Virus record (IMG/VR): IMGVR_UViG_3300049846_001452
Location: 1 to 28,219 of that record
Reading direction: 5' to 3' (one strand)
DNA: 28,219 nt
Source of the DNA: a virus
The notes beneath the pieces are model-generated. The model saw only the letters and a list, made by a program, of their open reading frames with translations. It was not told where the DNA came from and made no database searches. Within the stretch, counting starts at the first letter, position 1. Each line of letters opens with the position of its first letter. Of the stretch, positions 1,012-22,703 are shown piece by piece. The position numbers and the translations under genes were made by a program.

Positions 1012-1647
1012 TTGGGCAAATATATGATCAAGTTACCGTTTGTAATCGAACCACGACGCAAGCCAATTTTGGAGCGTATTGGCAGTGATGAATCGGGTTA
1101 TATTGAAATTGAGCGTCGAGGTTATTTAACGAGCGGGGAGAAAGCATTTGTACAGCAGGCAGTTTCCAGTGACGAGGGAACATTACGAATCATTGGATTA
1201 TCACGTAAGGTAGCCACCAGTCAATCAATTACATTAGAGGAAGCATACCGCAGTGTTATTGGGGTATTAGGTGGATCAGCATCAGATGATCCAAAATTAA
1301 AAGCAATTGAGGATGAATATTTTGAAGAATTCAATGATGTATTAAATGTTTTGGCATTAATGCAATCAAAGGAGGAATTGATTACTGCTGTTTGCATGTT
1401 ACGTTATCGAGTGGATCCGGATATTGATATATCCTCAGTATTGGATTTACATCCGGACATTGTAAGTGGCCTAGGTCGGCTGTACAAGGATGAGGAATCG
1501 AAATCAGTTGAACGATTGATCCTAGCAGAAGAAGCAAGTAAACAAGAGGAAACGGAAGATGCAGCAGATGAATCTGCGGTGGATGATCAAATTGATCTTG
1601 ACAAGATGGAAAAAAAGCAAGGTCGCCGAACTCGAGGGAGTATGTAA
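1012..1647 (+). CDS. Tail assembly chaperone, short form (G-like)
   Basis: This is the zero-frame product of a chaperone pair analogous to lambda G and GT. It would bind the tape measure protein and keep it soluble until tube subunits assemble around it. The protein is about 207-211 residues, helical and increasingly acidic, ending in a low-complexity Glu/Asp-rich tail followed by a Lys/Arg-rich end. The start is uncertain: TTG at 1012 and ATG at 1024 are both in frame and neither has a clear SD; I favour ATG 1024. Identification rests on position before tube and tape measure genes and on the A AAA AAG slippery site at 1611-1617, ten codons before the stop, which leads into an open -1 frame. 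Sequence similarity to G proteins is not evident by eye, which is usual for this diverse family. Confidence 0.65.
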   Translation: MGKYMIKLPFVIEPRRKPILERIGSDESGYIEIERRGYLTSGEKAFVQQAVSSDEGTLRIIGLSRKVATSQSITLEEAYRSVIGVLGGSASDDPKLKAIEDEYFEEFNDVLNVLALMQSKEELITAVCMLRYRVDPDIDISSVLDLHPDIVSGLGRLYKDEESKSVERLILAEEASKQEETEDAADESAVDDQIDLDKMEKKQGRRTRGSM

Positions 1648-2249
1648 TACCATTTGATGAATATTATTGGTATTTAAAGAAACAATATCCCGGTGATTTG
1701 GAATTTACGCATTCCAATTACTGGGAGTTACCTTATTGTTATATTATAGATGCGGTAAGTCATGCCAGATTACAGCGTCAGAAGGAGCTACATGAAAATG
1801 AAGTGCCGATGTCACTGTTGGCATATCAGCAAGCGGAGATGAACAGGGACCGCAAGAAGACGAAGAAACCATATCAAATAGATGATTTTTATTGTTATGC
1901 ACCGAGTGATCTCAGGGATTCGGTGGATGCAATATATGGTAGTGCTGCACTGGAATTGATTAAGATGGGATCATTCCCAAGGTGGGGATTGTATATGTAT
2001 AAGGAGTTAACAGAAAATGCGGATAAAACAAAAGCACCCCAGATATTGTGTTACCAATGTGAAACGGCCATACTGCTAGCGCCCAAAATAATGGACAATA
2101 TATGTAAAGGAATGTTAATAGCGCAAGAGAGTGCTTCCAACCGTATGCTGGAGTTAACAGCGCCAAATGGTGATCTGATACGCCTCAGAATGCCAGAAAT
2201 CAATGGCAAAGTTGCCGCTCTGGAAAATTGTTACTTGGATATTGTATAA
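1602..2249 (+). CDS. Tail assembly chaperone, frameshift extension (T-like part of GT)
   Basis: This frame is open from 1602 (just after a TGA at 1599-1601) to the TAA at 2247-2249 and has no ATG near its beginning; the first usable codon is a TTG at 1698 without an SD. The part upstream of that TTG (SPNSREYVIPFDEYYWYLKK and onward) looks like genuine protein. It is therefore best read as the C-terminal part of a -1 frameshift fusion starting at 1024, giving about 408 residues in total. The extension is rich in Tyr, Trp and Cys and carries a basic segment near KKTKKPYQIDDF. In lambda the T part recruits tube subunits; the same role is inferred here. Its 3' end overlaps the convergent HNH gene by about 50 bases. 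Confidence 0.65.
   Translation, partial: QDGKKARSPNSREYVIPFDEYYWYLKKQYPGDLEFTHSNYWELPYCYIIDAVSHARLQRQKELHENEVPMSLLAYQQAEMNRDRKKTKKPYQIDDFYCYAPSDLRDSVDAIYGSAALELIKMGSFPRWGLYMYKELTENADKTKAPQILCYQCETAILLAPKIMDNICKGMLIAQESASNRMLELTAPNGDLIRLRMPEINGKVAALENCYLDIV
1611..1617 (+). promoter_or_regulatory. Programmed -1 frameshift slippery site A AAA AAG
   Basis: In the zero frame the codons read GAA AAA AAG, which contains the heptamer A AAA AAG, identical to the well-studied E. coli dnaX slippery sequence. A one-base backward slip joins the zero frame to the frame that stays open to 2249, and the fusion length is arithmetically consistent (409 codons from ATG 1024 including stop). No clear upstream SD-like stimulator is seen. 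A 7-bp stem (1646-1652 with 1668-1674) lies downstream but is AT-rich and further away than usual, so the stimulator is uncertain. Confidence 0.7.
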
Positions 2250-2804: not shown

Positions 2805-3251
2805 TTGTTAAATTTAGTTGTGCCGCAAACCAGGGTAACATCAGCGCTAGACATATATAATACCCTGGCTGACGACAGTACATTTATGTCGTATGTGGGT
2901 GATTATACGTTTAAAGGTGGCAGTACATCAACAGCTCTCAGTATTATTACACCTGGCAAGGCGTTACCAAATCTGGGTGATGTGCAGGGACTTGAGGTTA
3001 TTATTCATGATGCGGGTCGTGCTGGACGCATTGATTATTTAACAAATCCAAGTGATGCACTGATTACTTATCAGGTTTACTTATTATTGTGGGAACCAGC
3101 CAATGGTGACACATTGAATAATGCATCAACCAGAATAATCGAGGCCTTTAGTGGTACAAATGTACTACAAATCGTCCCTATCAAAGAAAACAAAAACATT
3201 TTAGTACAAAGTTTAGCTGAAATACCGAATAATGCAGCAATTATGATCTGA
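2805..3251 (+). CDS. Tail terminator / tail completion candidate
   Basis: A 148-residue protein lying between the chaperone and the tail tube gene. The segment ITYQVYLLLWEPANGDT followed by a helix-like NNASTRIIEAFSG resembles the alpha/beta layout of small tail terminator proteins (lambda gpU, SPP1 gp17 type), which cap the tube at its head-proximal end. This identification is inferred from size, predicted fold pattern and position, not from a diagnostic motif. The start is TTG at 2805: the frame is open only from 2796, there is no ATG, and AGGTGAT at 2795-2801 is a strong match to the anti-SD at suitable effective spacing. It is separated from upstream tail genes by the HNH insertion. A different minor tail role is possible. 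Confidence 0.6.
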   Translation: MLNLVVPQTRVTSALDIYNTLADDSTFMSYVGDYTFKGGSTSTALSIITPGKALPNLGDVQGLEVIIHDAGRAGRIDYLTNPSDALITYQVYLLLWEPANGDTLNNASTRIIEAFSGTNVLQIVPIKENKNILVQSLAEIPNNAAIMI

Positions 3252-3368: not shown

Positions 3369-3968
3369 ATGGCAAACATTTCTACCGCGTTTGGTTACGA
3401 CGTTTACATCATCCCGCTGCTGGCATCCAACGTGGACACCGCTTTCACCGGCGTGACTGGTTCTGTTGGTGCTGGTACTGGTAATTTCATCAACACCACC
3501 TCTGTTGTGGGTGCCGGTGACACCGTCAGCTATGCCGCTGGTGCATTCACGGTTGAAACCACCGTTTATGACATGGATGGCACTGATAAGCCGGTGCGTC
3601 TGTATGGTCTGACCAACGCTGCCCTGGAAACGGACACCAACTCGGAAGATGTGGTGACCTATGACTCCACCACTGGTGGCTTCAACCTGAGCCTGCCTAC
3701 CTCCAAGTCTTGGAGCATCTCGCTGGCTGGCGTGGCTGACTTCAAAGATGCTGGTTATCAAATCCTGCGTCTGGCTGAGCAGAACACCGTGGCTGACGCA
3801 CTGCGCGTGAAATTCGCCCGCGTGGGCCCCACTGGCACGACCGAAGCCGTTTATGGCTATGGCACCCTGAGCGGCTACACTGAGTCGATTGAAGCCGGTT
3901 CTATCGTGTCCTGGGAAGCCACCGTGCAAGGTTACGGTGCGTATAAACTGGACCTTGATGCCAACTGA
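3369..3968 (+). CDS. Major tail tube protein (TP901-1-like family)
   Basis: This 199-residue protein forms the stacked rings of the tail tube. The second half carries the pattern of TP901-1-type phage tail tube proteins: a VVTYDSTTGGF stretch, LPTSKSWSISLAGVADF, YQILRLAEQ, LRVKFARVGPTGTTE and finally a GYTESIEAGSIVSW segment followed by QGYGAYKLD. The gene uses far more C- and G-ending codons than its neighbours, consistent with high expression. It starts at ATG 3369 after a structured leader without a good SD, and ends two hairpins upstream of a strong terminator, so it may be expressed as a single-gene unit. The tape measure follows immediately, as expected in tail modules. A long antisense frame here is a by-product of the codon bias. 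Confidence 0.88.
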   Translation: MANISTAFGYDVYIIPLLASNVDTAFTGVTGSVGAGTGNFINTTSVVGAGDTVSYAAGAFTVETTVYDMDGTDKPVRLYGLTNAALETDTNSEDVVTYDSTTGGFNLSLPTSKSWSISLAGVADFKDAGYQILRLAEQNTVADALRVKFARVGPTGTTEAVYGYGTLSGYTESIEAGSIVSWEATVQGYGAYKLDLDAN

Positions 3969-4064: not shown

Positions 4065-7000
4065 ATGGCCGGCGATCTGAATTTCAAAGTTAATTTTGAT
4101 ACAGCACAAGCCGGCGCTGAACTGCAATCGTTACTGGAAAAATTTGTTGCCGGATCGGAGTCTGCTGGCAATCGACTGAACAGAGCGCTGGGTGGCACGA
4201 CTGAACGCAAAGTTGTAATTAGAACTGAAGTTGATGAAACTGGTATCAAGAAATTAACATCACAGGTCGTAACACTGCGTTCCGAGGCAGATAAATTAAA
4301 GAATGCATTTGCTACTGCAACGCGTGTAGATCGCGACAGTATTACTAGCTTACGCGGACAAATCCGTCAAGCTACGCAAGCGCGAGATGCTGTGCAGCAA
4401 TTTGGTCAAGCGATTGACCTAACCAGCAGAAAACAGGTATTAAGTGCAAAGCAAACTGAAGAATATACTGCCCTAGATGCCAGGGTAAAAACCTTACAGC
4501 AGTCTTTAAAAAATCTGCAGGATGCCGATAAGGGTCTGAGCGGTCGATTAGCCGACAGTTTTGGTGAACTACTGAACAGGGGTCGCAAATTACAGGATAT
4601 AGTTACTATCTTCCAGAGTGTTGGCATTGCAATAAGTGCTGTAACAGCACCAATAAAAGCTGCAACCAATGCACTGGCTGATCTTGATCAGTTCAGGTTG
4701 TCATTCCAGGCAATTGGTCAAAGTTCTAGTGCAGCGGCTGGAGCCCTGGCTGATGCTAGTCGCATTGCACTTGGACTTGGTGTCAATATCAAGACAGTCA
4801 GGGATGGCTTCCAGCAATTATCACCTGTTGTATTGAATACTGGTGGCAGTTTAGATGATGTTTCGGCAATTACCGAATCATTATCAAGCCGCTTCGCTGC
4901 GTTTGGTCTTGGCGCGGAAAAATCTCGTCGCGTCTTAAATGGCGTCATCCAGGCCTTTGGTAAAGGCAAGTTACAAGCAGAAGAATTAACGCAGCAAATA
5001 TCTGAAGCTGATCCGGCATTCAAAACTGACTTTGCTAATGCATTATTTAAATCTGTAGATGCATTAAAAGCGGCTGGCGGTGAAAGCGCACAACTTGCAT
5101 CAGAGCTATCAGCACTAGCAAAATCTGGGCAAAGACCAGTTGCGGCCCTTGAGGGACTGGTAAAACAGGGTAAAATAACTGCCGCTGTACTGACTGAAAT
5201 CCTGCCCAAGCTTAGCAAAGCTGACATATTGTTTGGTAAATTAGGACCAACGGCTACTACTGGAGTTGAAGCATTTAAGCGAGGCCTGCTTGGCCTGGAT
5301 AAAATTCCAGTTACGTTGCGTCAAGTACAAGCAAATATTGAAAATATCAATCAGTTAAACCTAGAAAAGTTTGCTAAACTTGCTGAACCATTAGTAATTG
5401 TATTCCTAGAGCTGCAGGCTGCAGTTACAGATTTCATCACTCGACTGGCTGATACTAGTGCAATCAAAGATTTAATATCAATATTATCTGCTATTGGTAC
5501 TGGTATTGGCAATGTTACGAAATTTATTCTTTCTGGAATTGAAGGACTGGTTAGACTTGTAGGAATATTTACGCCATTAATTAGCTTGCTGACTAAAATT
5601 CCTGGTTTGGTTGAATTGATTGGTGCAGCATTACTGATCAAGTTTGTCAAGCCAGTTTCTGAATCTGTTGCATCAGCTAAAACTTTAATTCAGGCATTCA
5701 GGGATATCGGTAAAGCGAAAAGTGCCCTTGATAGCACTGGTGGCAATCAATTATTCGATCCAAAAAGTAGTCAGGTCGCGCAGAAATCATTATCGGAACT
5801 GAGAAAAGAGTTACAAGCTCCAGTCAGTTCTGGAACCACTAAAGCTGTCAAGGAAACATCGACAGCACTAGAGGAAACTACTAAAATTAGCAAAAAATCA
5901 CTGAAAGAAGCGACTAAACTCAGGGCTACTATACAAGAACTGGGTGACGAGCGTCGAGCAATTGAAAAAGAAATTGCGGATACTCAAACTCGACAAGCAA
6001 CTGCAACTGCTGAAAATGCTTCCAGGAATCAATCCATCAAGTCTATTAAATCAGAGATTTCTGAACTAGAGCGACTGCGTAATACGTCAAAAACCACGGC
6101 GCAGGGCCTCAGGAATTTTTATTTTCAACAGGAACAGGCTCAGCGTTCTGCTGCGGGTATTGGCCCTCGGGAGGCTTTTGTGCCACAAATTCCCGATTCT
6201 GCTAATTTAATAAAGCAAATCCATGAAACAGACGCGGAAACGAATAACTTAACTAAAAGAATAGAAGTATTACAAACAGAATTGAATAAACTCAATGCAA
6301 TAAAAGCAAGCCCGGAAGTGAATATAGTTGGTGATCTAGACGGTCAAATAAAAACGCTAAAAGCAAGGCGTGTTGAACTGGAAAAAGAGATAAGGGATAG
6401 CGCAAAGAAATTATCACGTATTGAAGTTGGCCCTGCACAGGAAACAGTTAATATAGCTGCACCAACTAGTAACATAGAATCTGCTGATAAGTTAATAAAA
6501 GATTACAAAAATAATGCGGTAAGGTCATATATTGAAATGAAAATGGGGTCAGAGGACTATGTACGACAAGTAACGTCAGAGATAGAAGCACTGGACCGCA
6601 GGGCTAAACTATTAAAAGGCTCCAGGGGCAACCTGCCATCTCTTAATGTCGCATTGCCTGGTTCTTTTGATGTTACCGATGAGCTAAGGTCTGTTCAAAG
6701 CCAAGCCGATAAGCTGCGTAGTAGCCTAGCCCAGCTCGATGCTTCTTGGGCTCGTAGCTATAAGGGTGTCTTGGATTATGAAGATGCGCTAACCACGCTT
6801 GATTCTGGTGCAAAGTTAACAGAACAGCAATTAAGTCGCCTTGGTGCTGCTGGTGATATAGTTCAGCAAGCGGCAGTGGCAGCGGCTGCAGAAGTAGCTG
6901 GATTAACCGATGAGCAGACAAGACTCCAAGGAGTTGCTAGTAATCTGAAAACAGAATTAAGCAAGCTTAGCCTGAGTGATAATGTCAAGGCTGACGAGCT

Positions 7001-10000
7001 AAGAGGTCAGCTTACGGATGTCAACGGTCAGTTAGGCGATCTCGACAAGAAACTGCAAGGTTCAGCCAGTGCAGCTAATCTGCTCGCACAAGAGTCACAA
7101 TTGATTGGCAGTGCGCTAGAACAAGCAGCAAAGCCAAGGCCTAAGTTGGATGGCATTACCCAAAGTCTTAAGCAGATGTCTGGGTCAAGTAATACTTTTG
7201 CTTCTAACTTTGGCAAGCTTGGCCTAGGTGTTATCAATACTGGTACCAGATTAGCGAATCTATTTAAGGGTATAGGCGCATCAATAGCTAGTCTTGGGCC
7301 ACAACTTGCAGTATTTGCTGCAATATCAATTGCTGTATCTGCATTCAACAAGCAATCCGAATTGGTTAAGAATGTTCAACAACAGAACAAAGCAGAACTC
7401 GACAAGTTGAATGCTACTGTTAATGACCTGAAAGATAGCTATGGCGCGTTGACCAGTACTGCACAGCAGACTAATATAGATACTTTGATTCCTAAGTTTT
7501 CTGGCCTAGAAGTTGTTCTAATCAGTCTTGGTGGTGCGATCAAGACTGTAATTGATTTCCTTGGTGGATTATTTAACAAACTTAGTTCAGTTGCTCAGGT
7601 TGACGCTCTTACTGGTCAAGTAACAAAAGCTGGAGATGCGTTTGGTGCGTTTTTTGGTGTTCTTGGTACAACCGCTGCTGGCGCTCTGACTGGATTCTTG
7701 GTCAGTGGATTGAATCCTCTTGGTGCAGCAGTCGGCGCTGTTACTGGTCTGGTTGTAGGATTGATTGGTGTCATGAACCAATCTGGTGTTACGGTTGACC
7801 AAATAAAGCAAAAGAATGAAGAATTAAGAAAAGGATATCAGCAACAGTTTGGGGCATTGCGTGAACTCGTTACTCAAATTGATATCTACGGAAAAGCATA
7901 TGATAAAGTAAAAGCCAAGAATGATGCTGGAAAAGGCAATGAACAAAGCTTAAACAATCAAATACAACTGTTCAGTAGGATAACTGCTGCTTATGGTGCG
8001 CTGGTTAACAAGTCCAGGGAGTTAAAACTTGCCCAGGATTCAACCGTTAGATCGTATGATGCAGCTTCAACTAGTCTGGTTACGCTTGATCAAAAGATAA
8101 AATCTCTGCAGGGTGAGCTTACTAAGTTAAATTCCATTAGAAGCAATCCTTATCGCGCTAAGGAAATAGAACAACAGATAGCTGGGCTTACTCAACAAAA
8201 AGCTGCAACAGCAGCCCTAAGGCAGGAACTTGCAAAAACAAGCAATACTTTAAAGGCGCAGTATGCGATCATTCAGGCGGAAATCGAAAGGCTAAGGAAA
8301 AAATTCGGGTTATTATCGCAAGAACAGCTTAAAAATGCGACTAGTGTCGATAATTTAGATGCAAAATATAAGGAATTGAAGAGCGCTTTGGAGCTGTTGG
8401 ATTTTGGTACGCAGAAGCAAAAATTTAACGAAGTAGCCACCGAGATGGGTAAAGTAAAAGCCCAAATCGATCAAATTGAAAACGCAGCAAAAAGCAGGGA
8501 ATTAGCTGGATATATATCTGAAGTAAAAAATCAACTTGCAAATGGCGAGATACCGACAAGTCTGGCTACTATACAAAATTTGGTTAAATCACTAGAGGAG
8601 CGATCGATTTCACTTGATATAAATTCACCTGAACTTCCAAAAGTCCTGCAAGATCTGCTTAAGGCTGAAGACTTTACCAACCGTTTGGATGGCAAAAAGG
8701 CTGAAATAACGCTAGAACTGATTGAAAGAGGACTTCAAAGCGGATCGCTGGCTAATACTTTAGCGTTAAGAGAGAAGCAACTGCAGGAACTTGGCAAGGT
8801 CAAGCAAACAACTCCTATTGGGAGCAATGAATACGAAGCTATCTTAGCCAAGGAAAAACAGCTCACTCAGGCAAAGGAAAATGATGAGAAGACTGTTGAT
8901 GAATTACGTTCAGAACTAGCCCAAAAACAAATAGATAGAATTGATAATATAGTTGAAGCACAGAAAAATGCTAGCGAAAAACGCATCCAACAAATTGACA
9001 GGGAATCAAAAGCAATTGAAAAGCAGTATGATGCGCAAATCAAAGCACTAGAAGGTCAGCGTGGTCCAGCCGAACAAGAACTAGCAAAACTGCAACGAGC
9101 GGATCTGGAGGCGAAAGCTAAGCAACCGGGCCGTTCTGGACTGGAGGCCAGGGCTGAACTAGAGCGTCTTGCCAGGGAAGAGAAAGTGACGCAATTAAAA
9201 GAGGAAAAGGAGAAAAAAGTGCAGGAGCTTGCCGATCAAAGGGCCGCCATTGAGGAAACAATAACACAAAATGAATACCAGTTATTAGACACCAGAATTT
9301 CGGCTGAAAAAGAAATCGCTAAAATCAGAGGTACACAAATAGATCAAGAAATTAGCGGCCTGCAACAATCAATCAGGAACAGGGCATCCGGACAAACTGG
9401 TACAACTGGCACGACAACTGCTGTTCCTGGTGGAACACAACAATCTGTTGACCAAGCGAAGGCTGCTGGCGAGCAGGCAGGAAAGGCCTACAGTACTGGA
9501 TACCAGATGTCAATTAAAGCTGCTGGGCCACCGGAGAACGATCCTAACGCAAAAGTTAAATACAACTTTCAGGATCCTGCTGTAATTGCTGCTTCCAAGG
9601 AACGCAATACGCTGCAGGAGCAGTACAATGCCCTGCTTGCCAGCACGAAGGCCCTGGAACAGCAGCAGGCCAGGACCACTCCTGGTCAACAGGATTCCAG
9701 TGTTACTGATCAAATCCTGAGCAATTATCAGCAATTAGCTGCACTGCAGGCCCAAATGGCAAGTGCTGAGCAGAATTATTCTAACTCATTACAAGCTACG
9801 AAGCAAGTTACCGGTCAAATAGTCATTACAAATCAGACATTAGCTCAACAATTTGGGCAATTATCAAATACGAAACCAGCCACTCCGGTTGACCTTTCAA
9901 AGCTAAGCGAAGCCTATCAGAAGGTAACACAGCTAAATGCTGAATACAAGAAACAGCAGGGAATTGTCAATGCACTAAAAGCGCAGACATCTTCCTCCGA

Positions 10001-10934
10001 TCCGGCCGTACGTCAGGCTGCAATACAGCAGCTTGCTATTGAAAACACAAAACTACAAGATTTACAGACGAAACTTAATGGTGTCAAATCTGCCTATAGC
10101 AGCCTGGAAAGCACCGCTACTGGCCAAGGGCTCAGTAATTCAATTACCCCAGACAATCTAGATCAGCTCAAGACTGAAATCAAAAACTGGGCAAGCGGTT
10201 TGGATACCGTCGACCAATCTGGAAAATCGGTTAGCAGTACTCTGCAATCAACCTCGGATGTAATCTTACAGATTGCGGCTGCATCAAAACTTACAGAAGA
10301 TTCGTTCAAAAACGCTGCTGGCTCCGTGGGTTCTGAAATGCTACCAGCGATACAGCAAATTGAACCTGAATTAAACAATATACAACAACAGCTTGATGAT
10401 ATTTTCAATAAAACATATGAAGTGGCTGTTGTCCTGAAAACTGAAAAGCAAGGACTGTGGACTGGTGGCCCTGCCACTGGCGGCACCGTCTACAAGGTGA
10501 ACGAACTTGGCCAAGAAGGCTTCATGAACAAGTTTGGCCGGGTTACTCCGATCAGAAAGGCCCGTAACAGCTCCTGGAGAGCCCCTGGAGATGGCTTCGT
10601 TATCCCGGCTGATATCTACAGTCAAATGTCACAAACATCGCCTGCAGCGCCTTCTGTGGGTATTTCACCGGCAACGCCCAAGGCTCCTAGTACGGGCAAT
10701 GACTCACTGCGTTCGTTGGCCAAGTTTACCGCAATGTTGGCGGCAAAAGCGATGCAACCATCTGGCGACAATGGCACGTACGAACTCTCGAAAGTTCAAG
10801 CACATCAGGCCCAGGAGATCGGAAAACTAAGCCGCGCAGTGCAAGAATTGAACGAAAAAGACTGGAACGTAAATGTTAAAGTACGAAACGACAACAGTCT
10901 TGCATACCTTAAGGCCTTAAATCACCGACTGTAA
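4065..10934 (+). CDS. Tape measure protein
   Basis: At 2,289 residues this is the tail length ruler, threaded through the tube and ejected at infection. Residues about 200-415 match the tape-measure N-terminal domain type (DQFRLSFQAIG, a long run of small-residue helices, ELTQQISEADPAF). Hydrophobic segments lie near residues 469-530, 1071-1093, 1149-1168 and 1192-1237, as expected for parts that enter membranes. Long charged Gln/Glu/Lys coiled-coil stretches occur near 600-800, 1290-1420 and 1570-1775. Near 2129-2156 is the conserved C-terminal motif type GGPxxGGxxYxVxExGxExF. ATG 4065 has no SD. The stop overlaps the next start (TAATG). No lysozyme or peptidase motif was recognised. By the usual 1.5 angstroms per residue, the tail would be roughly 340 nm. 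Confidence 0.95.
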   Translation: MAGDLNFKVNFDTAQAGAELQSLLEKFVAGSESAGNRLNRALGGTTERKVVIRTEVDETGIKKLTSQVVTLRSEADKLKNAFATATRVDRDSITSLRGQIRQATQARDAVQQFGQAIDLTSRKQVLSAKQTEEYTALDARVKTLQQSLKNLQDADKGLSGRLADSFGELLNRGRKLQDIVTIFQSVGIAISAVTAPIKAATNALADLDQFRLSFQAIGQSSSAAAGALADASRIALGLGVNIKTVRDGFQQLSPVVLNTGGSLDDVSAITESLSSRFAAFGLGAEKSRRVLNGVIQAFGKGKLQAEELTQQISEADPAFKTDFANALFKSVDALKAAGGESAQLASELSALAKSGQRPVAALEGLVKQGKITAAVLTEILPKLSKADILFGKLGPTATTGVEAFKRGLLGLDKIPVTLRQVQANIENINQLNLEKFAKLAEPLVIVFLELQAAVTDFITRLADTSAIKDLISILSAIGTGIGNVTKFILSGIEGLVRLVGIFTPLISLLTKIPGLVELIGAALLIKFVKPVSESVASAKTLIQAFRDIGKAKSALDSTGGNQLFDPKSSQVAQKSLSELRKELQAPVSSGTTKAVKETSTALEETTKISKKSLKEATKLRATIQELGDERRAIEKEIADTQTRQATATAENASRNQSIKSIKSEISELERLRNTSKTTAQGLRNFYFQQEQAQRSAAGIGPREAFVPQIPDSANLIKQIHETDAETNNLTKRIEVLQTELNKLNAIKASPEVNIVGDLDGQIKTLKARRVELEKEIRDSAKKLSRIEVGPAQETVNIAAPTSNIESADKLIKDYKNNAVRSYIEMKMGSEDYVRQVTSEIEALDRRAKLLKGSRGNLPSLNVALPGSFDVTDELRSVQSQADKLRSSLAQLDASWARSYKGVLDYEDALTTLDSGAKLTEQQLSRLGAAGDIVQQAAVAAAAEVAGLTDEQTRLQGVASNLKTELSKLSLSDNVKADELRGQLTDVNGQLGDLDKKLQGSASAANLLAQESQLIGSALEQAAKPRPKLDGITQSLKQMSGSSNTFASNFGKLGLGVINTGTRLANLFKGIGASIASLGPQLAVFAAISIAVSAFNKQSELVKNVQQQNKAELDKLNATVNDLKDSYGALTSTAQQTNIDTLIPKFSGLEVVLISLGGAIKTVIDFLGGLFNKLSSVAQVDALTGQVTKAGDAFGAFFGVLGTTAAGALTGFLVSGLNPLGAAVGAVTGLVVGLIGVMNQSGVTVDQIKQKNEELRKGYQQQFGALRELVTQIDIYGKAYDKVKAKNDAGKGNEQSLNNQIQLFSRITAAYGALVNKSRELKLAQDSTVRSYDAASTSLVTLDQKIKSLQGELTKLNSIRSNPYRAKEIEQQIAGLTQQKAATAALRQELAKTSNTLKAQYAIIQAEIERLRKKFGLLSQEQLKNATSVDNLDAKYKELKSALELLDFGTQKQKFNEVATEMGKVKAQIDQIENAAKSRELAGYISEVKNQLANGEIPTSLATIQNLVKSLEERSISLDINSPELPKVLQDLLKAEDFTNRLDGKKAEITLELIERGLQSGSLANTLALREKQLQELGKVKQTTPIGSNEYEAILAKEKQLTQAKENDEKTVDELRSELAQKQIDRIDNIVEAQKNASEKRIQQIDRESKAIEKQYDAQIKALEGQRGPAEQELAKLQRADLEAKAKQPGRSGLEARAELERLAREEKVTQLKEEKEKKVQELADQRAAIEETITQNEYQLLDTRISAEKEIAKIRGTQIDQEISGLQQSIRNRASGQTGTTGTTTAVPGGTQQSVDQAKAAGEQAGKAYSTGYQMSIKAAGPPENDPNAKVKYNFQDPAVIAASKERNTLQEQYNALLASTKALEQQQARTTPGQQDSSVTDQILSNYQQLAALQAQMASAEQNYSNSLQATKQVTGQIVITNQTLAQQFGQLSNTKPATPVDLSKLSEAYQKVTQLNAEYKKQQGIVNALKAQTSSSDPAVRQAAIQQLAIENTKLQDLQTKLNGVKSAYSSLESTATGQGLSNSITPDNLDQLKTEIKNWASGLDTVDQSGKSVSSTLQSTSDVILQIAAASKLTEDSFKNAAGSVGSEMLPAIQQIEPELNNIQQQLDDIFNKTYEVAVVLKTEKQGLWTGGPATGGTVYKVNELGQEGFMNKFGRVTPIRKARNSSWRAPGDGFVIPADIYSQMSQTSPAAPSVGISPATPKAPSTGNDSLRSLAKFTAMLAAKAMQPSGDNGTYELSKVQAHQAQEIGKLSRAVQELNEKDWNVNVKVRNDNSLAYLKALNHRL

Positions 10935-13796: not shown

Positions 13797-16700
13797 ATGG
13801 CAGCACCAGTTTTCCAGGCCGTAGGAACGCAGTTTGCGGCAACCAACGCGACAACTGCTACGTGGCCAACGCACCAAACTGGTGACATCGGGGTCCTCGT
13901 TGTTGAAATTGACGGTCTAGGCACTGCGATTACTATAAGTGGTTGGACCAGTCAAACAAATGCAGGTGACAATACGGTAGGGAGTAAATTACAGGTTTTG
14001 TGGAAGCGGGCAGCCAGCGCCGCCGAACCTGCGGTATCTATACCCGATACCGGCGACCACCAAATTGGGGCTATTTTTACATTTAGGGGTTGTAGGGCTT
14101 CTGGTAATCCATTCTTTGGTACGCAAACTTCATCTTTAATACTTAGTAACGCTGGCTCCGTTACTTGGCCAACTCTTACTACAACAGAAAATGATCTTTT
14201 AGTGCTGCTAATTGCGACTAGAAATAATGATAATGCTAGTACTACTTTCTTTGGAGTAGCTCAACCTGGTACTGGCGCTGCTCTTACTGGTGTTGCAGAA
14301 GCAGGTGAAATAGGTGCCATTTCCGGTAATGGTGGTGGAGCTACTGTTCAGTACGGAACTTTAGCGCTTGCTGGTTCCACTGGAACCTATACTTCAACTG
14401 TTACGACGGGTGGTGTAGCTCACGTAATGGCCACTATGGCCCTGCTGGGTCCTGTTGGTGTTACTGGCGAAAAAGGCGCATTCAGCGTTGTCGGCAAAGA
14501 TGCAACTTTCAAGAGAAGTTACAGTGTTTTAGCTGCAACTGGCAGTTATGCTGTCGCGGGAAAGAATGCAAACCTCAAAAAGGGCTGGCTCGTATCGGCT
14601 GGAACGGGCTCATTCTTGGTCGCCGGAAAGAATGCAACTTTCAAGAAATCGTATTCACTGCTATCCAGTAAGGGTTCGTTCTTAGTTTCAGGAAACCCTG
14701 TTACCGTTAGGACAATCAGGGCCCAGGCTGGCAGCTTTACCGTAGCTGGTAAAAATGCTAACTTCAAGAAAAATTCTGTATTTCCTGTTAGCGCTGGCAG
14801 CTTTAACATAGCAGGCAAGAATGCTTCATTTGTCAAGGGCAGGGCATTTATTGTTGGGCCTGGTTCGTATACAGTTAATGGCAAAAACGCCATACTTATT
14901 CGAACTATTGATCCTCAAAACAATTTAAACAATAACTTCCCAGATGCGCAACCTGGAGATGGCGTGGTTGATCAAAATACTGGAGATGTATGGATATATA
15001 ATGGCACTTTATGGGTTAATTCTGGACCTAATCCTGGTACAACTATTGAAGCAAGCAGACAAATACCAGTCTATAACGAAACCTTGCTTTGCACATGTAT
15101 AACTGGCATCAGTTTTGGTTCAAAAAGCCTTGCGTATAAACTGGATCTAGATCCTGTAATACTTGAACCATCTATAGTAACCACTAGTATTTCTGTATCG
15201 GTGTTGAATGCTGTGTATGCGCCACCGAACAGTGGCAGAATTACCTTATCTTACAATACACCAAGTATCAGGAAAGGCACAGCGGTTTTTGGTAAATCTT
15301 ACAATATAGCTATAAATAGTTTTGCTCCAACCGTTACGGCTTCTAGCGGTGTTGGAGTACCTGCTGCAAGTATAACTATCAATGCTTTTGCCGGATCGAT
15401 CGCATCTCAGACAAAAACGATAGGCATGCCGAGTGCTGTTGCTGTAAATATTACCACTGGAACACCTACGTTGATAAATATTAGTGATCCATACTGGAGC
15501 AATGTTGTTTTATTGCTTAGGACGGAAGGTTCTTCGTTTGCTACCAATCCATCCGGTAGATATTTTGCTGATGCTGGACCATACAACCTGACAATAAGAA
15601 CAACCGCAAAAGACTCGCTCGATTATACAAAACAAAACGTTCTTTATAGCAGCACGCGTGTTAAGTATGGTGCAAATTCTGCACTTTTCTGGGACGCAAG
15701 TTCGCTGTTGAAAATTGAAGCAAACTCTAACACTGTTATTGGTACCAGTCCATTTACGGTCGAGTTATGGATATATCTCACTTCTCTTGGTAGCACAAAT
15801 CAAACAATTATTGGTGAAACAAACCTAAGTAATGGTGGAGAGCTGGTAATATACTTCAACCAGACATTGATAGGTGTCGGGAAAGCTGATACAAGTGAAG
15901 GGTTTACCACTATTCATAATGGTTCTTTAACTGTAGGAGCCTGGCATCATCTAGCGGTTGTCAGGGATACATCTAGCAATGCTTACGTTTTCCTGAATGG
16001 TATTCTTAAGTCTAGTCCAATCCAACTGCTATCAGATTTCTCTTCAACAGAAGGAAACCAGGGTAAGTTAACAGTAATTGGTGGCGATGGAACTAATGGT
16101 GGTACACTTAGGGGCTTTGTAGAAGACCTCAGAATTACAAAAGCTGCAAGGTATACCAGTAACTTTACTGTGCCATCGGAGCAGTTTGAGGGTAAGGATA
16201 TTACTCCTGTCGTTACAGAACCCAGTGATATACCATATTCTGCTGTCAAATTATTGATTCATGGATCTGGATCAATTGCAGATTCCAGCTCCAGCGGTAC
16301 ATCGATAACGGCAACTGGTGTCAGCATTAATACAACTGTCCAGGATCCATTTGGCTTTACGTCTGGCGTACTAAGTTTTGGCGGTACCAGCAGTTATCTA
16401 ATATTTGGCTCAAATACTGGCCTAGTATTCGGTACTGATCCATTCTGTCTTGAGTTCTGGGTTTATTTAACATCTGCATATTCGGCTAATATATTTGCTC
16501 CCTTTGCTAATAGTACTACAAATACTGGACTGCCTAGTATTAGGATGTTCTGTGATTCAAACGGCTATGGCACTGAAACTATTTTTGACATATTGAAGAC
16601 TTCGTGCTGCCCGACGGTACTGAATACATGGCATCACATTGCTTTTACCAGGGATTCGCTTGGTGAAGGACGTGTATTTGTAGACGGCAAGCTGGTTGAT

Positions 16701-19700
16701 TATCCGGAATTTCTAGCGAACTACTTGGCTGGATATTATTGGACTGGTAATGGTAAAACATCCTTTGACACGCAAATCAACAGCATAAACAAACTTGCTG
16801 CCGGTGATCCATATTACGATAACGTCGTACTGAGAGTTAACTTCGATAGATATAATCCAGCAAATGGAGTTTACTACGAAGATGAAGCTGATCCCGTTAG
16901 TGCTGTTTTATGGACATATCAATTTGGCTCCGGTGTCATCAGTACGGCCGACAGTAAGTATGGCGGAGCATCTTACTATAATGGTGATTTAACCCTTTCT
17001 GGGGCAAAAGTACAAAGTAGTGCTTACTTTAATACTGGCGCAACCAGATTCAACCTTGGGGTTCAGTACGGTGGCGAGACAGTAGTCAAGCCAACAACAA
17101 TAGAGGCATTCATAAAACCAACTGCCAATCCAATTTCTGATGGTCAATGGCTAGAGTACTGCGTCGTTGGTAGGGCTAGTGATTATAATCTACATGTATA
17201 TCCAACTGCAAGCGGAGTTGGTAGTTACATCAGTGTATGGAACGATGCTAGTTTCTTCTATACTGGTGGCGCCAGTCCCGGACCGGCTGAAATTAAAATA
17301 TATCCACCAGCGCCTGGTATCACGCTGAATCAATGGCACCATGTAGCCATTACAACCGACAGCAGCGGCAATATGTTCTTCTGGCTAAATGGGGCACAGG
17401 TCGGCTGGGTTGTTAAATCTTGGTCCGCGGGTACTGGCGACAATAGCAGTACAGCCCCTGTTATTGAAATAGGCGGCATCCGTAGATCTAGTTTTGGAAC
17501 ACCTCTTAATTGCTTTAAGGGATATATTGATGGCGTTAGGATAACGAACGGCAAGATTGTCAGTGGAGGCTGGACCCCTGGGGTGACAAGATACACGGGT
17601 GTCGCGGGCCAGCAGACTGGTGGAACTTATACAATTCCTACATACGAGAGCATGTATTCTAACCTCGCCGGATCTTCTCCAGGCCTTAATGGATACATGT
17701 GTGAAGTCAGGGTAACTAAGGGATACGCCAGATATGTTGCTGATTTTGATGTGCCAAATGGAAGGTATCCGAATACAGAAAAGCTAGGTGTAATGGTATT
17801 AAAGACAATAAAAGTTACTGTATCGGCTATTACGCCCGAATATATTGGTTCCAGACCGGTGTTTGGATCGGTTCAGCATTATCAATCACTAAATGGTGAA
17901 AATATTACAATTACTTGGCCATCGGATGCCAGTACTTATGATGTCGGATTGCTCGTTATCGCATTGGAAGGAAATGCTGACACGGTCCCAACAATGCCGA
18001 CTACAACCTATCCGGTATGGAATAGTGCTATTACTGGTGGGAAATTTTCAACTTCGCAAATTGCATCAATCAATAATGGCGCCGATAGCGATAGTTCTAT
18101 TGTGGCTGCATGGTGGACTAAATTAACTGGCGGATATCCAACCGCCAATCCATCTTTTACAATATCTGGTTCTCCGTCAACCGCTACGCGTCTACCAATA
18201 GCTAACATATCTACTATTTACGGTTCTCCAAATACATTTGTATCCGTAAATGGAAGTGGTAATTTCTATACCGATGCTGCAAACCCATCAAATACTATAT
18301 CGTTTCAAACTGATGTTAACAACAAAGCAACAGTATTTGGTTGTACATTAGATAAAAGTGCTGGAAACTGGTACGATTCGCTGCCGTCAAGCGCAACTGC
18401 TACTTTTACACTTAAATATGCACTATGCGATGCTGACGGATCTTTAAATAATGGATACGTTCAAGGCCCAATTGCTCCAATAAATACAGGTAATAATATT
18501 ACTTTTACGGTGCAAATTGGTGTATATAACACTAGTACAAGCACATTTACTCCTGTATTTACAGGTCCCAGCTTAACTACTACTTTAACACTTTCTTGGA
18601 CTCAGGTATCGTATCAAATTAATACAAGTTTACTGGTTCCATATGCATCAAGTCCTTACAGGCTTGCCATGGGAGTAAATGCAGCAGCCAGTGGCGGTAG
18701 TCCCAATACCAGGAGATCATTGGCAGTTTGCTATTATAATGCAACATGGCCGCTTGGTATTTCAAAGGTGGCTGCCAGCTTTGTTACAATCAAGAATACA
18801 AGCACTCATCCCAGTGGTGATCCATTTCAGCTTGCTATAGAAGATACCGCTACTAATATCACGGCAAGAAGTGGAAGCCAGAGAATATGTCCTGTTTATA
18901 GTACTGTAACGACGCCAACTAATACTTGCCAAAGCCCGGCTTCCTTTTCTGAGCAAAAGGCGTGCGTAAATCTTGCATGTTTTATTACACCACTTGGATC
19001 AAACTCGGATATCTTTTCTAACGATGCCACATGCTCCAGCTTGACTGGTATAACAAAGACAACAGCAGGTGGTGTCAATGATGCGTCCAGCAATCTTGGC
19101 AGCACAATTCAGTTTGTGTACGGCAGTACGAATAAATTTGGCGATTTAGCTCCAATCACAATAACAAAGTCAGCCAGTACAAAATATATATCACTTAGCT
19201 GGGTCTTTGAGAACAATAAAACTGATGCGTATACGAACTATATTTATGCGAGAATTTCTGGCGCCGATGGTGAGCCACTTAACGAAACCTACTGGGCTGC
19301 GTACAAGACATTCCTGCTCAATCTTCTTGTATATAATGGGTGCAGTCTTGTTTATAATTTTGGTGGAGCAAAGTACTATTCATCATGCATGTTTGCTACT
19401 ACCTGTGGAATAAAAATCATTGGTAGCACTCAATACTATATCACCAATAGCAGTCAAACATGGTATCAGAAAACTGAATTAACCGCAACCAACTTTGAAA
19501 ATGATCAATACAGTAGAACAACTGGCTTAAGGGGAAGTCCTTCAAGGGGTTCATATATTGCAATGCCAAGCGCAGGCACGCATTGGTGGTTAATAAGTGA
19601 TGTTACGCCAGCTACGACGATTACTACATACGCTCGCAGAGGCGAAATAATATACGGAAATAGCCCAAGTGGATACGCTCACACGGAATGGGCTATTGAG

Positions 19701-20078
19701 CAGGACGACTTGGGGTGGAGTTACACACCATGGGACTATAATGCTTCGACTGGAGGTATTGATGGATATCGATACAATAACTATGGTGTTGCTGGTCCCG
19801 GAACGGAATTCGTTGGATTTAGTGGCGCATATTTTAACAATCCTTATTACTGGTGGATCGAGGGCACATGGAATTCACTAACTAGCTCTGGGTTAAGTTC
19901 TTCGCTTACTGGTACTCCTTACCTGTTTGCCAGTCCAGGTACTACTGGGATGACAAACTTCTCAAATGCTAAGGTATTTTGTGGCGTACATGTATATATG
20001 AATAGCTCTAGCCAGGCTAGTGTGATCAAAAGCTATATGGATACATTTTACAATAGTGTAAAAGATTTACAGATATAA
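13797..20078 (+). CDS. Giant multidomain tail tip / fibre protein with LamG domains
   Basis: A 2,093-residue protein, probably host-binding. Domains in order: a beta domain at residues 1-222 of a type common in phage fibres (PVFQAVG, TWPTHQTGDIGVLVVEI); seven repeats of about 22 residues at 226-370 (GSFxVAGKNAxFKK); a module at 375-455 shared with the next gene; 22-residue beta repeats at 482-560; LamG-like domains at about 563-798 (WHHLAVVRD, VEDLRITKAARYT), 813-995 (WHHIAFTRD) and 1004-1280 (WHHVAITTD, YIDGVRITNG). Residues 1297-1325 look like the displaced last strands of the second LamG. A second copy of the N-terminal domain follows near 1352-1478, then an unrecognised aromatic-rich C-terminus. 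Concanavalin-like LamG folds often bind glycans, which is the inferred role. No enzyme active site was seen. Confidence 0.8.
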   Translation: MAAPVFQAVGTQFAATNATTATWPTHQTGDIGVLVVEIDGLGTAITISGWTSQTNAGDNTVGSKLQVLWKRAASAAEPAVSIPDTGDHQIGAIFTFRGCRASGNPFFGTQTSSLILSNAGSVTWPTLTTTENDLLVLLIATRNNDNASTTFFGVAQPGTGAALTGVAEAGEIGAISGNGGGATVQYGTLALAGSTGTYTSTVTTGGVAHVMATMALLGPVGVTGEKGAFSVVGKDATFKRSYSVLAATGSYAVAGKNANLKKGWLVSAGTGSFLVAGKNATFKKSYSLLSSKGSFLVSGNPVTVRTIRAQAGSFTVAGKNANFKKNSVFPVSAGSFNIAGKNASFVKGRAFIVGPGSYTVNGKNAILIRTIDPQNNLNNNFPDAQPGDGVVDQNTGDVWIYNGTLWVNSGPNPGTTIEASRQIPVYNETLLCTCITGISFGSKSLAYKLDLDPVILEPSIVTTSISVSVLNAVYAPPNSGRITLSYNTPSIRKGTAVFGKSYNIAINSFAPTVTASSGVGVPAASITINAFAGSIASQTKTIGMPSAVAVNITTGTPTLINISDPYWSNVVLLLRTEGSSFATNPSGRYFADAGPYNLTIRTTAKDSLDYTKQNVLYSSTRVKYGANSALFWDASSLLKIEANSNTVIGTSPFTVELWIYLTSLGSTNQTIIGETNLSNGGELVIYFNQTLIGVGKADTSEGFTTIHNGSLTVGAWHHLAVVRDTSSNAYVFLNGILKSSPIQLLSDFSSTEGNQGKLTVIGGDGTNGGTLRGFVEDLRITKAARYTSNFTVPSEQFEGKDITPVVTEPSDIPYSAVKLLIHGSGSIADSSSSGTSITATGVSINTTVQDPFGFTSGVLSFGGTSSYLIFGSNTGLVFGTDPFCLEFWVYLTSAYSANIFAPFANSTTNTGLPSIRMFCDSNGYGTETIFDILKTSCCPTVLNTWHHIAFTRDSLGEGRVFVDGKLVDYPEFLANYLAGYYWTGNGKTSFDTQINSINKLAAGDPYYDNVVLRVNFDRYNPANGVYYEDEADPVSAVLWTYQFGSGVISTADSKYGGASYYNGDLTLSGAKVQSSAYFNTGATRFNLGVQYGGETVVKPTTIEAFIKPTANPISDGQWLEYCVVGRASDYNLHVYPTASGVGSYISVWNDASFFYTGGASPGPAEIKIYPPAPGITLNQWHHVAITTDSSGNMFFWLNGAQVGWVVKSWSAGTGDNSSTAPVIEIGGIRRSSFGTPLNCFKGYIDGVRITNGKIVSGGWTPGVTRYTGVAGQQTGGTYTIPTYESMYSNLAGSSPGLNGYMCEVRVTKGYARYVADFDVPNGRYPNTEKLGVMVLKTIKVTVSAITPEYIGSRPVFGSVQHYQSLNGENITITWPSDASTYDVGLLVIALEGNADTVPTMPTTTYPVWNSAITGGKFSTSQIASINNGADSDSSIVAAWWTKLTGGYPTANPSFTISGSPSTATRLPIANISTIYGSPNTFVSVNGSGNFYTDAANPSNTISFQTDVNNKATVFGCTLDKSAGNWYDSLPSSATATFTLKYALCDADGSLNNGYVQGPIAPINTGNNITFTVQIGVYNTSTSTFTPVFTGPSLTTTLTLSWTQVSYQINTSLLVPYASSPYRLAMGVNAAASGGSPNTRRSLAVCYYNATWPLGISKVAASFVTIKNTSTHPSGDPFQLAIEDTATNITARSGSQRICPVYSTVTTPTNTCQSPASFSEQKACVNLACFITPLGSNSDIFSNDATCSSLTGITKTTAGGVNDASSNLGSTIQFVYGSTNKFGDLAPITITKSASTKYISLSWVFENNKTDAYTNYIYARISGADGEPLNETYWAAYKTFLLNLLVYNGCSLVYNFGGAKYYSSCMFATTCGIKIIGSTQYYITNSSQTWYQKTELTATNFENDQYSRTTGLRGSPSRGSYIAMPSAGTHWWLISDVTPATTITTYARRGEIIYGNSPSGYAHTEWAIEQDDLGWSYTPWDYNASTGGIDGYRYNNYGVAGPGTEFVGFSGAYFNNPYYWWIEGTWNSLTSSGLSSSLTGTPYLFASPGTTGMTNFSNAKVFCGVHVYMNSSSQASVIKSYMDTFYNSVKDLQI
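14472..14905 (+). repeat. Seven tandem ~66-bp coding repeats (GSFxVAGKNA)
   Basis: Seven units start at GAFSVVGKDA, GSYAVAGKNA, GSFLVAGKNA, GSFLVSGNPV, GSFTVAGKNA, GSFNIAGKNA and GSYTVNGKNA, spaced about 19-23 residues. The fourth is shorter and degenerate. The DNA is similar but not identical between units (for example GGAAAGAATGCAA recurs), so expansion is not very recent. The pattern suggests a stack of short beta hairpins forming a stalk. Confidence 0.85.
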
Positions 20079-20126: not shown

Positions 20127-22703
20127 ATGGCAGATCCCCAGCAAACATTAAACAATGCCTTTCCTGGAGCAGAAACTGGAGATGCCGTTGTTGACGAACT
20201 CACTAACGATGTATGGGTTTACGATGGCAGTTTATGGATAAATAATGGAGGAAATCCAGGCGAATATTTAGTAGATCCAACACCGATTCCGACACATAAC
20301 GAAACATTGCTGGTTACATGTATAATGTCAACCGGCTTCAGTTCAAAAAGCCTAAATTATGGGCTTCAATTACTTTCTGAATTAAATCCAATATCGTTTG
20401 GTATTGGTCTGCAGGTCAGCCCAATATCTGTAAAGATAGATATGTCTGGCGAAACAAAAGAATTCGAGATTGTAGCAGATCATCCAGATGTCAGGACAGG
20501 AATAGCTGTATTTGTGCCATTAAATAAGGTAATAGCAGTAGTCGCAATACCGCCAGCGGATATCAAGGCTAGCGTACAAGTTCAAGCTGTTATCAGCATA
20601 GCAGTTAGCGCTAATTCACCGTATATTTATACGGCTGTCAACTGTCTGAGTAAAGTAATATCAGTAAGTGCAAATGTGCCGTATATTTCGACACCGGTTA
20701 ACGCTACGATTGTTAATATTGCAATCAGTCCGCATACCCCCATTGACATAGGATCTGTTCTCTCAATACTTACGACTAGCATAGGTATTCAACCGTTAAC
20801 GCCATATCGAGTTGGACAAGGCATGCCTAGTGCAAAAGTGTATTTATATGGATTGCAGCCAAGCATCAGAACTGGTCTTGTTGTACCGAAGACAGACGTA
20901 TTAATTATTGCTAATTTACCGACAATTGGTTCTCGTTTAGTTGCAAACACGATTGCTGTTTCTGTGCAATCAGCTATTCCTACGATATCAGCGATACCAG
21001 GTATTGATATTCAGTGGCCGGCCGTATCGATACTGATAAATACTGATACTGTTGGCAATGGTACTATGACCAATAAGTCAACCAATTGGTGGTTTGGTCT
21101 TACCGGAAATCACGATTTATGGGTTGAATGGCCAAGTATTTTATGCCAGAATTCAATCACAAGGTTTAATTCAGTATGTATGCAACTGAGATCAGCTAGC
21201 GTAACTGGGATAGTTACTAGACCATACTATGCTATGGATAATATACTTGCAAGTTCAAATCAAAACTGGACAATAGATTTCTGGTTTAGAGCTGATACCA
21301 CCTCGTTTAGTGCTACAAATGATAGAATAATTTTTGGTAGCCAGTACACGCCAGTCAGTACTGCCTATGAGCACTTTACTTGCAGCATATTAGGCCCAAC
21401 TACTGGTGCAACCCTTAGATTTAGAATGGCATTACGCAGTCCTAGCACAGGCACTTATTCGCAAGCCGTTTTTACATCTACAGCCAATGCGATTGTTCCT
21501 AATACGTGGTATCATGTTGTCATTGATTGTCTTTATATTTCCGATTCGCTAGTTAGTGGTAATACTAGTTCCAACTGTAATTACAGAATTGGCATTAATG
21601 GCAACTGGGGACCTACCTATACAAACCCTTCTGGGACGGAAGTTACTAATACCTATTGGAATACAATTGTTTTTGGCCACTCAAATTACTCAAATGTAAC
21701 AACAACAAACGAATTTACTGGTTATATAGATGATTTCAGGGTTTCCGCTAGGCCGAGGTGGATTGGTTATGGAAATACTGACACTTATCTAAATGTTCCC
21801 ACTAGCGCTACCTATTGGCGTGGACTTAGGAGGTTCCCAGGCGACATAGGCACTCCGTATGATGTACCAACGCGTGCGGCACCAAGGATTGCACCACAGA
21901 ATGAAACATTCAGATGGTGGATGAATGTAAGGAAAAATCAAGCATCAAACCAAAGTGTTTGGTGGTATACCCATTATTCGGATAGGCCATCGATTCCTCT
22001 GGCTATAGATCAATTTGTAAGGGATTGCAAGAATGATAATATTTGGGATTCTATAAGCTATTGCGTACCATTTCTGGAAAGTTTAAGTTACTCAAATGGC
22101 TCTTCGTGGTACCCGCTAAAGGACCCCAGTCTTCCATATGGTGAGCCAGGCCTGCAAACTACGGGTTACAATATAGCAAGTTACGATAGATACAGGGGAA
22201 TAACTGGAAATGGTACAAGCACTTATATAAGTTGTGCGTTTAATAGCACAAGTCAAAATAATAATCACTACGCTGTTTATACTACTGCCATAGGTACTGG
22301 ACCACTGTTAAGCCAAGGGTTTACAGAAATTGGTGAATCCTACATGGATATAGTGCCAGGTCTTGGTGGCACGCGCCATACGAATAAACATGGATCACTA
22401 GCTACAAGTGGATCTGATGCGATGAACATATCGGATGGATTTTTTGGAATGTCAAGAAACAATTCCGAGAACTATTCTATAAGAGTACCAGGTTTCAGCG
22501 GTACCAGGACACTGAAATCGCTTAGCAGTTCTACGCCGGATCCTTTTTATATTCTTGCTAGATACGGCAATACTGGAGCACTTGACGCGTACGCAAGTCA
22601 TCGAATCAGTATATTTACCTGCGGAACATCAATAGACCTAGAAAAACTAGAGAAGAATATGACTGCGTTGAAAACAAGACTGGACCTCATCTATGGACTC
22701 TGA
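20127..22703 (+). CDS. LamG-containing tail fibre / adhesion protein
   Basis: An 858-residue protein. Residues 1-90 are paralogous to residues 375-455 of the preceding giant protein: AFPGAETGDAVVDE, NDVWVYDGSLWINNGGNPG and IPTHNETLLVTCIM align with NFPDAQPGDGVVDQ, GDVWIYNGTLWVNSGPNPG and IPVYNETLLCTCIT. Residues about 154-290 hold six or seven beta repeats of about 20 residues. A LamG-like domain covers about 321-560 (WTIDFWFRAD, NTWYHVVIDC, GYIDDFRVS). The C-terminal 290 residues resemble a receptor-binding end found in other phage fibres, with YDRYRGITGNGTS and a final helix (LEKLEKNMTALKTRLD). ATG 20127 follows a hairpin and lacks an SD. A role in host recognition is inferred; which of the two related proteins contacts the receptor is unknown. 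Confidence 0.75.
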   Translation: MADPQQTLNNAFPGAETGDAVVDELTNDVWVYDGSLWINNGGNPGEYLVDPTPIPTHNETLLVTCIMSTGFSSKSLNYGLQLLSELNPISFGIGLQVSPISVKIDMSGETKEFEIVADHPDVRTGIAVFVPLNKVIAVVAIPPADIKASVQVQAVISIAVSANSPYIYTAVNCLSKVISVSANVPYISTPVNATIVNIAISPHTPIDIGSVLSILTTSIGIQPLTPYRVGQGMPSAKVYLYGLQPSIRTGLVVPKTDVLIIANLPTIGSRLVANTIAVSVQSAIPTISAIPGIDIQWPAVSILINTDTVGNGTMTNKSTNWWFGLTGNHDLWVEWPSILCQNSITRFNSVCMQLRSASVTGIVTRPYYAMDNILASSNQNWTIDFWFRADTTSFSATNDRIIFGSQYTPVSTAYEHFTCSILGPTTGATLRFRMALRSPSTGTYSQAVFTSTANAIVPNTWYHVVIDCLYISDSLVSGNTSSNCNYRIGINGNWGPTYTNPSGTEVTNTYWNTIVFGHSNYSNVTTTNEFTGYIDDFRVSARPRWIGYGNTDTYLNVPTSATYWRGLRRFPGDIGTPYDVPTRAAPRIAPQNETFRWWMNVRKNQASNQSVWWYTHYSDRPSIPLAIDQFVRDCKNDNIWDSISYCVPFLESLSYSNGSSWYPLKDPSLPYGEPGLQTTGYNIASYDRYRGITGNGTSTYISCAFNSTSQNNNHYAVYTTAIGTGPLLSQGFTEIGESYMDIVPGLGGTRHTNKHGSLATSGSDAMNISDGFFGMSRNNSENYSIRVPGFSGTRTLKSLSSSTPDPFYILARYGNTGALDAYASHRISIFTCGTSIDLEKLEKNMTALKTRLDLIYGL
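20588..20990 (+). repeat. Tandem ~60-bp beta-repeat array in fibre gene
   Basis: Six to seven degenerate units of 20-22 residues follow the pattern hydrophobic-x-hydrophobic, four residues, Pro, then about 12 residues, for example ISVSANVPYISTPVN, IAISPHTPIDIGSV, IGIQPLTPYRVGQG and LIIANLPTIGSRLV. A matching set occurs in the preceding gene at 15240-15475. They probably form a repetitive beta stalk. Confidence 0.65.

Follow-up and report, generated by a model that had tools for sequence, protein, structure and literature searches.

The closest described counterpart of the locus reported here is the G/T pair of phage lambda, in which two frames overlap within the tail operon, T lies in the −1 frame and the slippery heptamer, GGGAAAG, is placed near the end of G. 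Two-frame loci of this −1 frameshifted type in the tail operons of siphophages are a hallmark of tail chaperones; in lambda, G and GT are absent from the virion, and the chaperones leave before it is finished (PMC5009743). A second point of reference is dnaX of E. coli, an unrelated gene whose heptamer, A AAA AAG, is read by Lys tRNA.

The DNA analysed, referred to below as the window, is a stretch of 28,219 nucleotides (IMG/VR virus record IMGVR_UViG_3300049846_001452). Its locus has in common with lambda the overlapping frames in a tail operon, the −1 position of T, the heptamer near the end of G and the expectation that the fusion is a minority product; in P-SS2, a phage with a homologous locus, G and T are missing from the table of virion proteins (PMC2784084). 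It differs from lambda in three respects. The genes precede those for the terminator and the major tail protein, whereas in lambda they are placed between major tail and tape measure; homology of the proteins to gpG and gpT could not be demonstrated; and in half of the present family a stop codon abuts the heptamer. The slippery site of the window is identical to that of dnaX, as an earlier first-pass annotation of this DNA had remarked, and the lambda heptamer is used by 31 of its relatives. In contrast to dnaX, frameshifting here would yield the longer product, and a Shine-Dalgarno-like stimulator is unsupported.

Two overlapping frames and a slippery heptamer

The elements of the junction are as follows.

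1024-1647, + strand: G-like open reading frame in the zero frame, 207 residues, from ATG 1024 (in-frame alternative TTG 1012)
1602-2249, + strand: open −1 frame, of which 1617-2249 (210 residues) is the T part of the fusion; matches phrog_34388 (cyanosiphovirus T) with E=1.1e-32, as do 84 of 84 T members
1611-1617, + strand: slippery heptamer A AAA AAG in the right phase for −1 slippage; a heptamer of this kind is found at 102 of 103 junctions
1645-1647, + strand: TAA stop of G, zero frame, separated from the heptamer by 27 nt (nine sense codons)
1698-1700, + strand: TTG, first ATG, GTG or TTG of the −1 frame, downstream of the conserved N-terminal T segment PFDEYYWYLKKQYPGD

The G frame had been listed from TTG 1012; since M-x-KLPF forms the N-terminus of its homologues, ATG 1024 is the likely start. 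In this frame the codons at the heptamer are GAA (1609), AAA (1612) and AAG (1615). The −1 frame opens behind a TGA at 1599. A fusion read from ATG 1024 would comprise 198 codons of G and 210 of T, exactly 408 residues, which agrees with the approximately 408 residues predicted in the first-pass annotation. Its other statements about the junction were confirmed as well: the heptamer is in phase ten codons ahead of the G stop, the −1 frame is open over its whole length with no ATG nearby, and the early part of that frame looks coding, the conserved segment preceding TTG 1698. Being located past this segment, TTG 1698 cannot yield the whole conserved domain.

On comparative grounds we consider it very probable that G and the −1 frame together constitute a tail-assembly-chaperone locus expressed by −1 ribosomal frameshifting in a cyanosiphovirus-type phage. 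Most ribosomes would translate G and terminate at 1645. In a minority, both Lys tRNAs would slip one base back at the heptamer, and translation would continue in the −1 frame to give the GT fusion. As in lambda, G would be expected to coat the tape measure protein and T to recruit the major tail protein, and G and GT would both depart before the virion is completed. Slippage in cells, and its rate, we infer.

The junction in homologous phages

Among annotated phages, matches were found in S-CBS2, S-CRES1, S-CRES2, S-CRES3 and P-SS2, which have Synechococcus or Prochlorococcus as hosts, and profile searches of IMG/VR yielded about 140 further loci. No relative of T was detected in bacterial or archaeal genomes in one scan of genome contigs. 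Each locus was read using G and T profile HMMs, and 103 distinct junctions remained after reduction, from S-CBS2, S-CRES1, S-CRES3, P-SS2 and IMG/VR contigs, corresponding to 69 clusters at 70% T identity. The G homologues of S-CBS2, S-CRES1 and S-CRES3 show 40–44% identity, that of P-SS2 20%, and all start at a matching M-KLPF region. The four phages carry homologous G and T with the same junction and heptamer class as the window. In the deposited annotation of S-CBS2, S-CRES and P-SS2 the frames are unjoined and T is truncated: the T genes in GQ334450 (35124-35765), GU936714 (9796-10413), OQ587939 and OQ587941 have an internal start, which drops the conserved N-terminal segment.

T lies in the −1 frame at all 103 junctions. 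An in-phase heptamer is present at 102 of them, that is in the window and in 101 of the 102 others, the types being A AAA AAG (62), G GGA AAG (31), G GGA AAA (8) and A AAA AAA (1). Elsewhere in G only 3 in-phase sites of these kinds occur in 17,417 other codons, so that about 0.2 junctions with a heptamer would be expected from background. Synonymous shuffles retain such a heptamer in 17.6 (about 18) of 102 loci, as against the 102 observed. Between lineages, A AAA AAG is exchanged for G GGA AAG or G GGA AAA, with several bases and one amino acid altered and tandem re-pairing retained. Judged by the shuffle comparison and by these exchanges, slipperiness is kept beyond the amino-acid need. Across the family, 0 to 117 nt lie between the heptamer and the stop.

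The single exception is the lineage of L034 and three identical copies (L036, L121 and L122), the only one without a full heptamer. It reads ACG GAA AAG TAA, with both frames intact, identically in two metagenome assemblies; in G GAA AAG the Lys codon can still slip (A-AAG), with imperfect re-pairing in the P site. Alignment of homologues had been proposed as a check, and homologues with a disrupted heptamer and both frames intact as evidence against a frameshift. This combination occurs in the L034 lineage alone, with the Lys slip kept, and is absent elsewhere. The heptamer (102/103) and both frames (103/103) are conserved, and the proposed −1 frameshift joining the two frames thus finds support in 103 junctions from 69 clusters.

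Position in the tail operon and the role of G and T

The neighbouring genes of the window are listed below.

482-985, + strand: gene for a tail completion / Neck1 protein, preceding G (phrog_5, 1e-6)
2200-2601, − strand: HNH endonuclease gene that runs towards T and overlaps the 3' end of T (PF01844, 1.3e-8); present in 101 of 102 loci
2805-3251, + strand: probable tail terminator gene, assigned from position in a conserved order, with no family match
3369-3968, + strand: major tail protein gene (phrog_38654, 2.3e-82; PF06199, 1.3e-7)
4065-10934, + strand: tape measure protein gene (PF20155 TMP_3, 5e-18; phrog_167, 1.8e-20)

The order neck, G, T, HNH (on the minus strand), terminator candidate, major tail and tape measure is conserved, and S-CBS2 and S-CRES share both the order and the convergent HNH gene with the window. 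Throughout the family, G and T come before the genes for terminator and major tail protein and do not occupy the interval from major tail to tape measure. The latter is the usual position of chaperones and no functional requirement, and departure from it lowers a claim of membership that is based on synteny. In the window only 96 nt separate the major tail and tape measure genes; there is therefore no chaperone gene between them and the lambda position is empty.

The minus-strand HNH gene lies inside a plus-strand tail operon. In 90 of 101 loci it overlaps T at the 3' end, and most of its HNH-type residues and its Cys pair are conserved. Homing endonucleases tend to occur sporadically; presence in nearly every locus suggests that this one serves the phage. 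Further downstream of the tail genes are two very long genes (13797-20078 and 20127-22703) with Laminin_G_3 (concanavalin-like) domains, which probably encode receptor-binding or fibre proteins. A head scaffolding protein gene (27245-27985; phrog_206, 1.4e-26) follows the tail and fibre genes and is not beside the neck gene.

The virion proteins of P-SS2 have been tabulated (PMC2784084, Table 2). Peptides are given for ORFs 061-063 and 066-068, and ORFs 064 and 065 are unlisted. By position, the two unlisted ORFs are G and T. Their absence fits chaperones, and low abundance or poor detection could also explain it. In the labels of S-CBS2, the flanking genes are structural, G and T hypothetical.

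Similarity searches gave a faint signal for T. Weak matches to PF06223 (Phage_tail_T) were obtained with 17 of 84 T members (best E 0.0012); one member examined scored 14.4 against a curated cut-off of 25.9, and the T of the window itself gave no match to this family. Nine T members score against the tail protein family phrog_5297. Family searches that used G members returned nothing consistent. Homology of T to lambda gpT was considered and found no support, as profile comparison with hhalign was non-significant (probability 1.9%). AlphaFold2 models of G and T had pLDDT values of 90.7 and 93.5, and neither matched a solved structure in the PDB. The best match of the T model in BFVD was C7F4B1, an unnamed protein of 177 residues, a length equal to that of the annotated P-SS2 T; the remaining matches were short uncharacterised proteins.

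The first-pass assignment as a G/GT chaperone pair remains probable: gene context, the P-SS2 table and the weak Pfam matches of T agree with it, but significant similarity to lambda gpT was not found. By analogy, the locus would work like G/GT, with membership in the gpG/gpT sequence family not demonstrated. One might instead accept the frameshift and regard the proteins as another pair of assembly factors, for the neck or the tail terminator for example, considering that G and T adjoin the neck gene ahead of terminator and major tail and that neither significant gpG/gpT homology nor a fold match is available. We think this unlikely. Two-frame −1 loci in siphophage tail operons are the mark of chaperones (PMC5009743), no other chaperone locus is seen in the window in the interval from major tail to tape measure, the P-SS2 virion table contains neither protein, and T members match PF06223 weakly (17) or score against phrog_5297 (nine).

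Ribosomal frameshifting and other ways of joining the frames

A chaperone pair could also be produced if the RNA polymerase added or dropped an A within the run of seven As in the window (1610-1616), joining the frames at the mRNA level, and 63 of 102 loci do carry six or seven As. Seven As are short for polymerase slippage. In the other 39 loci the same junction is built from GGGAAAG or GGGAAAA with only three or four consecutive As, and polymerase slippage is for this reason not the common mechanism; the conserved property is phase and tandem codon re-pairing, and the length of the run varies. Transcriptional slippage thus appears very improbable.

Likewise very improbable is independent translation of T, with initiation at TTG 1698 or at a noncanonical codon and perhaps with coupling to the end of G translation, as suggested by the presence of that TTG and by the deposited records of S-CBS2, S-CRES and P-SS2, where T is a separate gene with an internal start: in 90 of 102 loci the open −1 frame has no ATG, GTG or TTG ahead of the conserved WxLKxxFPGD segment (YYWxLKxxFPGD in longer form), which excludes independent initiation for most of the family, a noncanonical start aside. 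The opening of the −1 frame coincides exactly with the heptamer in 24 loci, and no start is conserved in the family. A conserved separate start for T, which the first-pass annotation had regarded as contrary evidence, was accordingly not seen. Programmed −1 frameshifting by the ribosome is the reading adopted below.

A stop codon directly after the heptamer

No codon separates the heptamer from the zero-frame stop in 53 of 102 loci. The window does not belong to this group, nine sense codons being interposed. A zero-frame stop right after the shift site has a precedent in dnaX of a few bacteria (PMC5009743). The abutting stops are UAG (32) and UAA (21), never UGA. UGA makes up 4 of 16 stops at a distance of one codon and 13 of 33 further away, and 91 of 211 in other genes of the stop-abutting loci. 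The raw figure of 0/53 overstates the independence of the loci; in clusters of 70% identity the comparison becomes 0/33 versus 13/43 (p=0.0003), with deeper relatedness ignored. The T stops of the same loci are likewise poor in UGA (5/53). At the sites that end in G, the −1 codon would encode Val whether it is GUA or GUG, and of the two GUG is more frequent in these loci; the absence of UGA is hence not explained by the coding of T.

The avoidance of UGA suggests competition with a release factor. Tentatively, and as no more than one of the possibilities, slippage in the abutting half (A AAA AAG UAR or G GGA AAR UAR) may compete with release factor 1 while the stop is in the A site, the kinetics of termination setting the ratio of G to GT; on this reading UGA would be kept out since only release factor 2 recognises it. 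If true, this would be a −1 counterpart of release-factor-sensitive recoding. With UAG or UAA invariably next to the heptamer, the abutting loci offer a natural −1 site at which competition with a release factor can be tested directly.

Downstream stem and upstream sequence

Folding of the region downstream of the heptamer (1618-1705), which had been recommended along with the original proposal, gave a candidate stem in the window.

1620-1628, + strand: 5' arm AGGUCGCCG of the candidate stimulator stem
1691-1699, + strand: 3' arm CGGUGAUUU, over the conserved Pro-Gly-Asp codons (fold and arm-swap test)

The stem is modest in the window: the fold has −20 kcal/mol and a z of −1.75 versus dinucleotide shuffles (range of z −1.2 to −1.75). 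Across 65 representatives, the 70 nt past the heptamer have a mean z of −1.2 versus synonymous shuffles, compared with about −0.2 further downstream. The value falls to −2.45 in loci of the GGG group with a near stop, where GCCAGG (about +7 to +12) pairs with the Pro-Gly-Asp codons some 50 nt on. When arms were swapped among 66 representatives, own arms paired better than swapped ones (z −5.0; 0 of 5000 permutations), and none of 12 control placements fell below −1.8. The register of the stem is conserved in the GGG group, and no register shared at base-pair level was found in the window's own subgroup. Conserved structure is therefore claimed for the GGG group only, together with the energy signal of the whole family. 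From these folding statistics, the downstream stem is likely to act as stimulator in part of the family; for the window it is a weaker candidate, and the data are suggestive only.

A Shine-Dalgarno-like stimulator finds no support. The family shows a peak 4–6 nt upstream that is nearly equal in synonymous shuffles, and no such motif was apparent by eye in the window, in line with the first-pass remark that none was obvious.

A proposed tail chaperone locus for cyanobacterial siphophages

No prior report of a tail-chaperone frameshift at this site in cyanophages or cyanosiphoviruses was found in the literature accessible without subscription. The locus is of a known kind, the frameshifted tail chaperone locus, in a new family that is set apart by its altered gene order and, in half of its members, by the abutting stop. 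A group of cyanobacterial siphophages in which it was unannotated would thereby gain a tail-chaperone locus, a function is proposed for phrog_34388 and its uncharacterised G partner, and the truncated T annotations of S-CBS2, S-CRES and P-SS2 can be corrected. In these phages the frameshift architecture would have persisted although sequence similarity is no longer recognisable and the gene order has changed.
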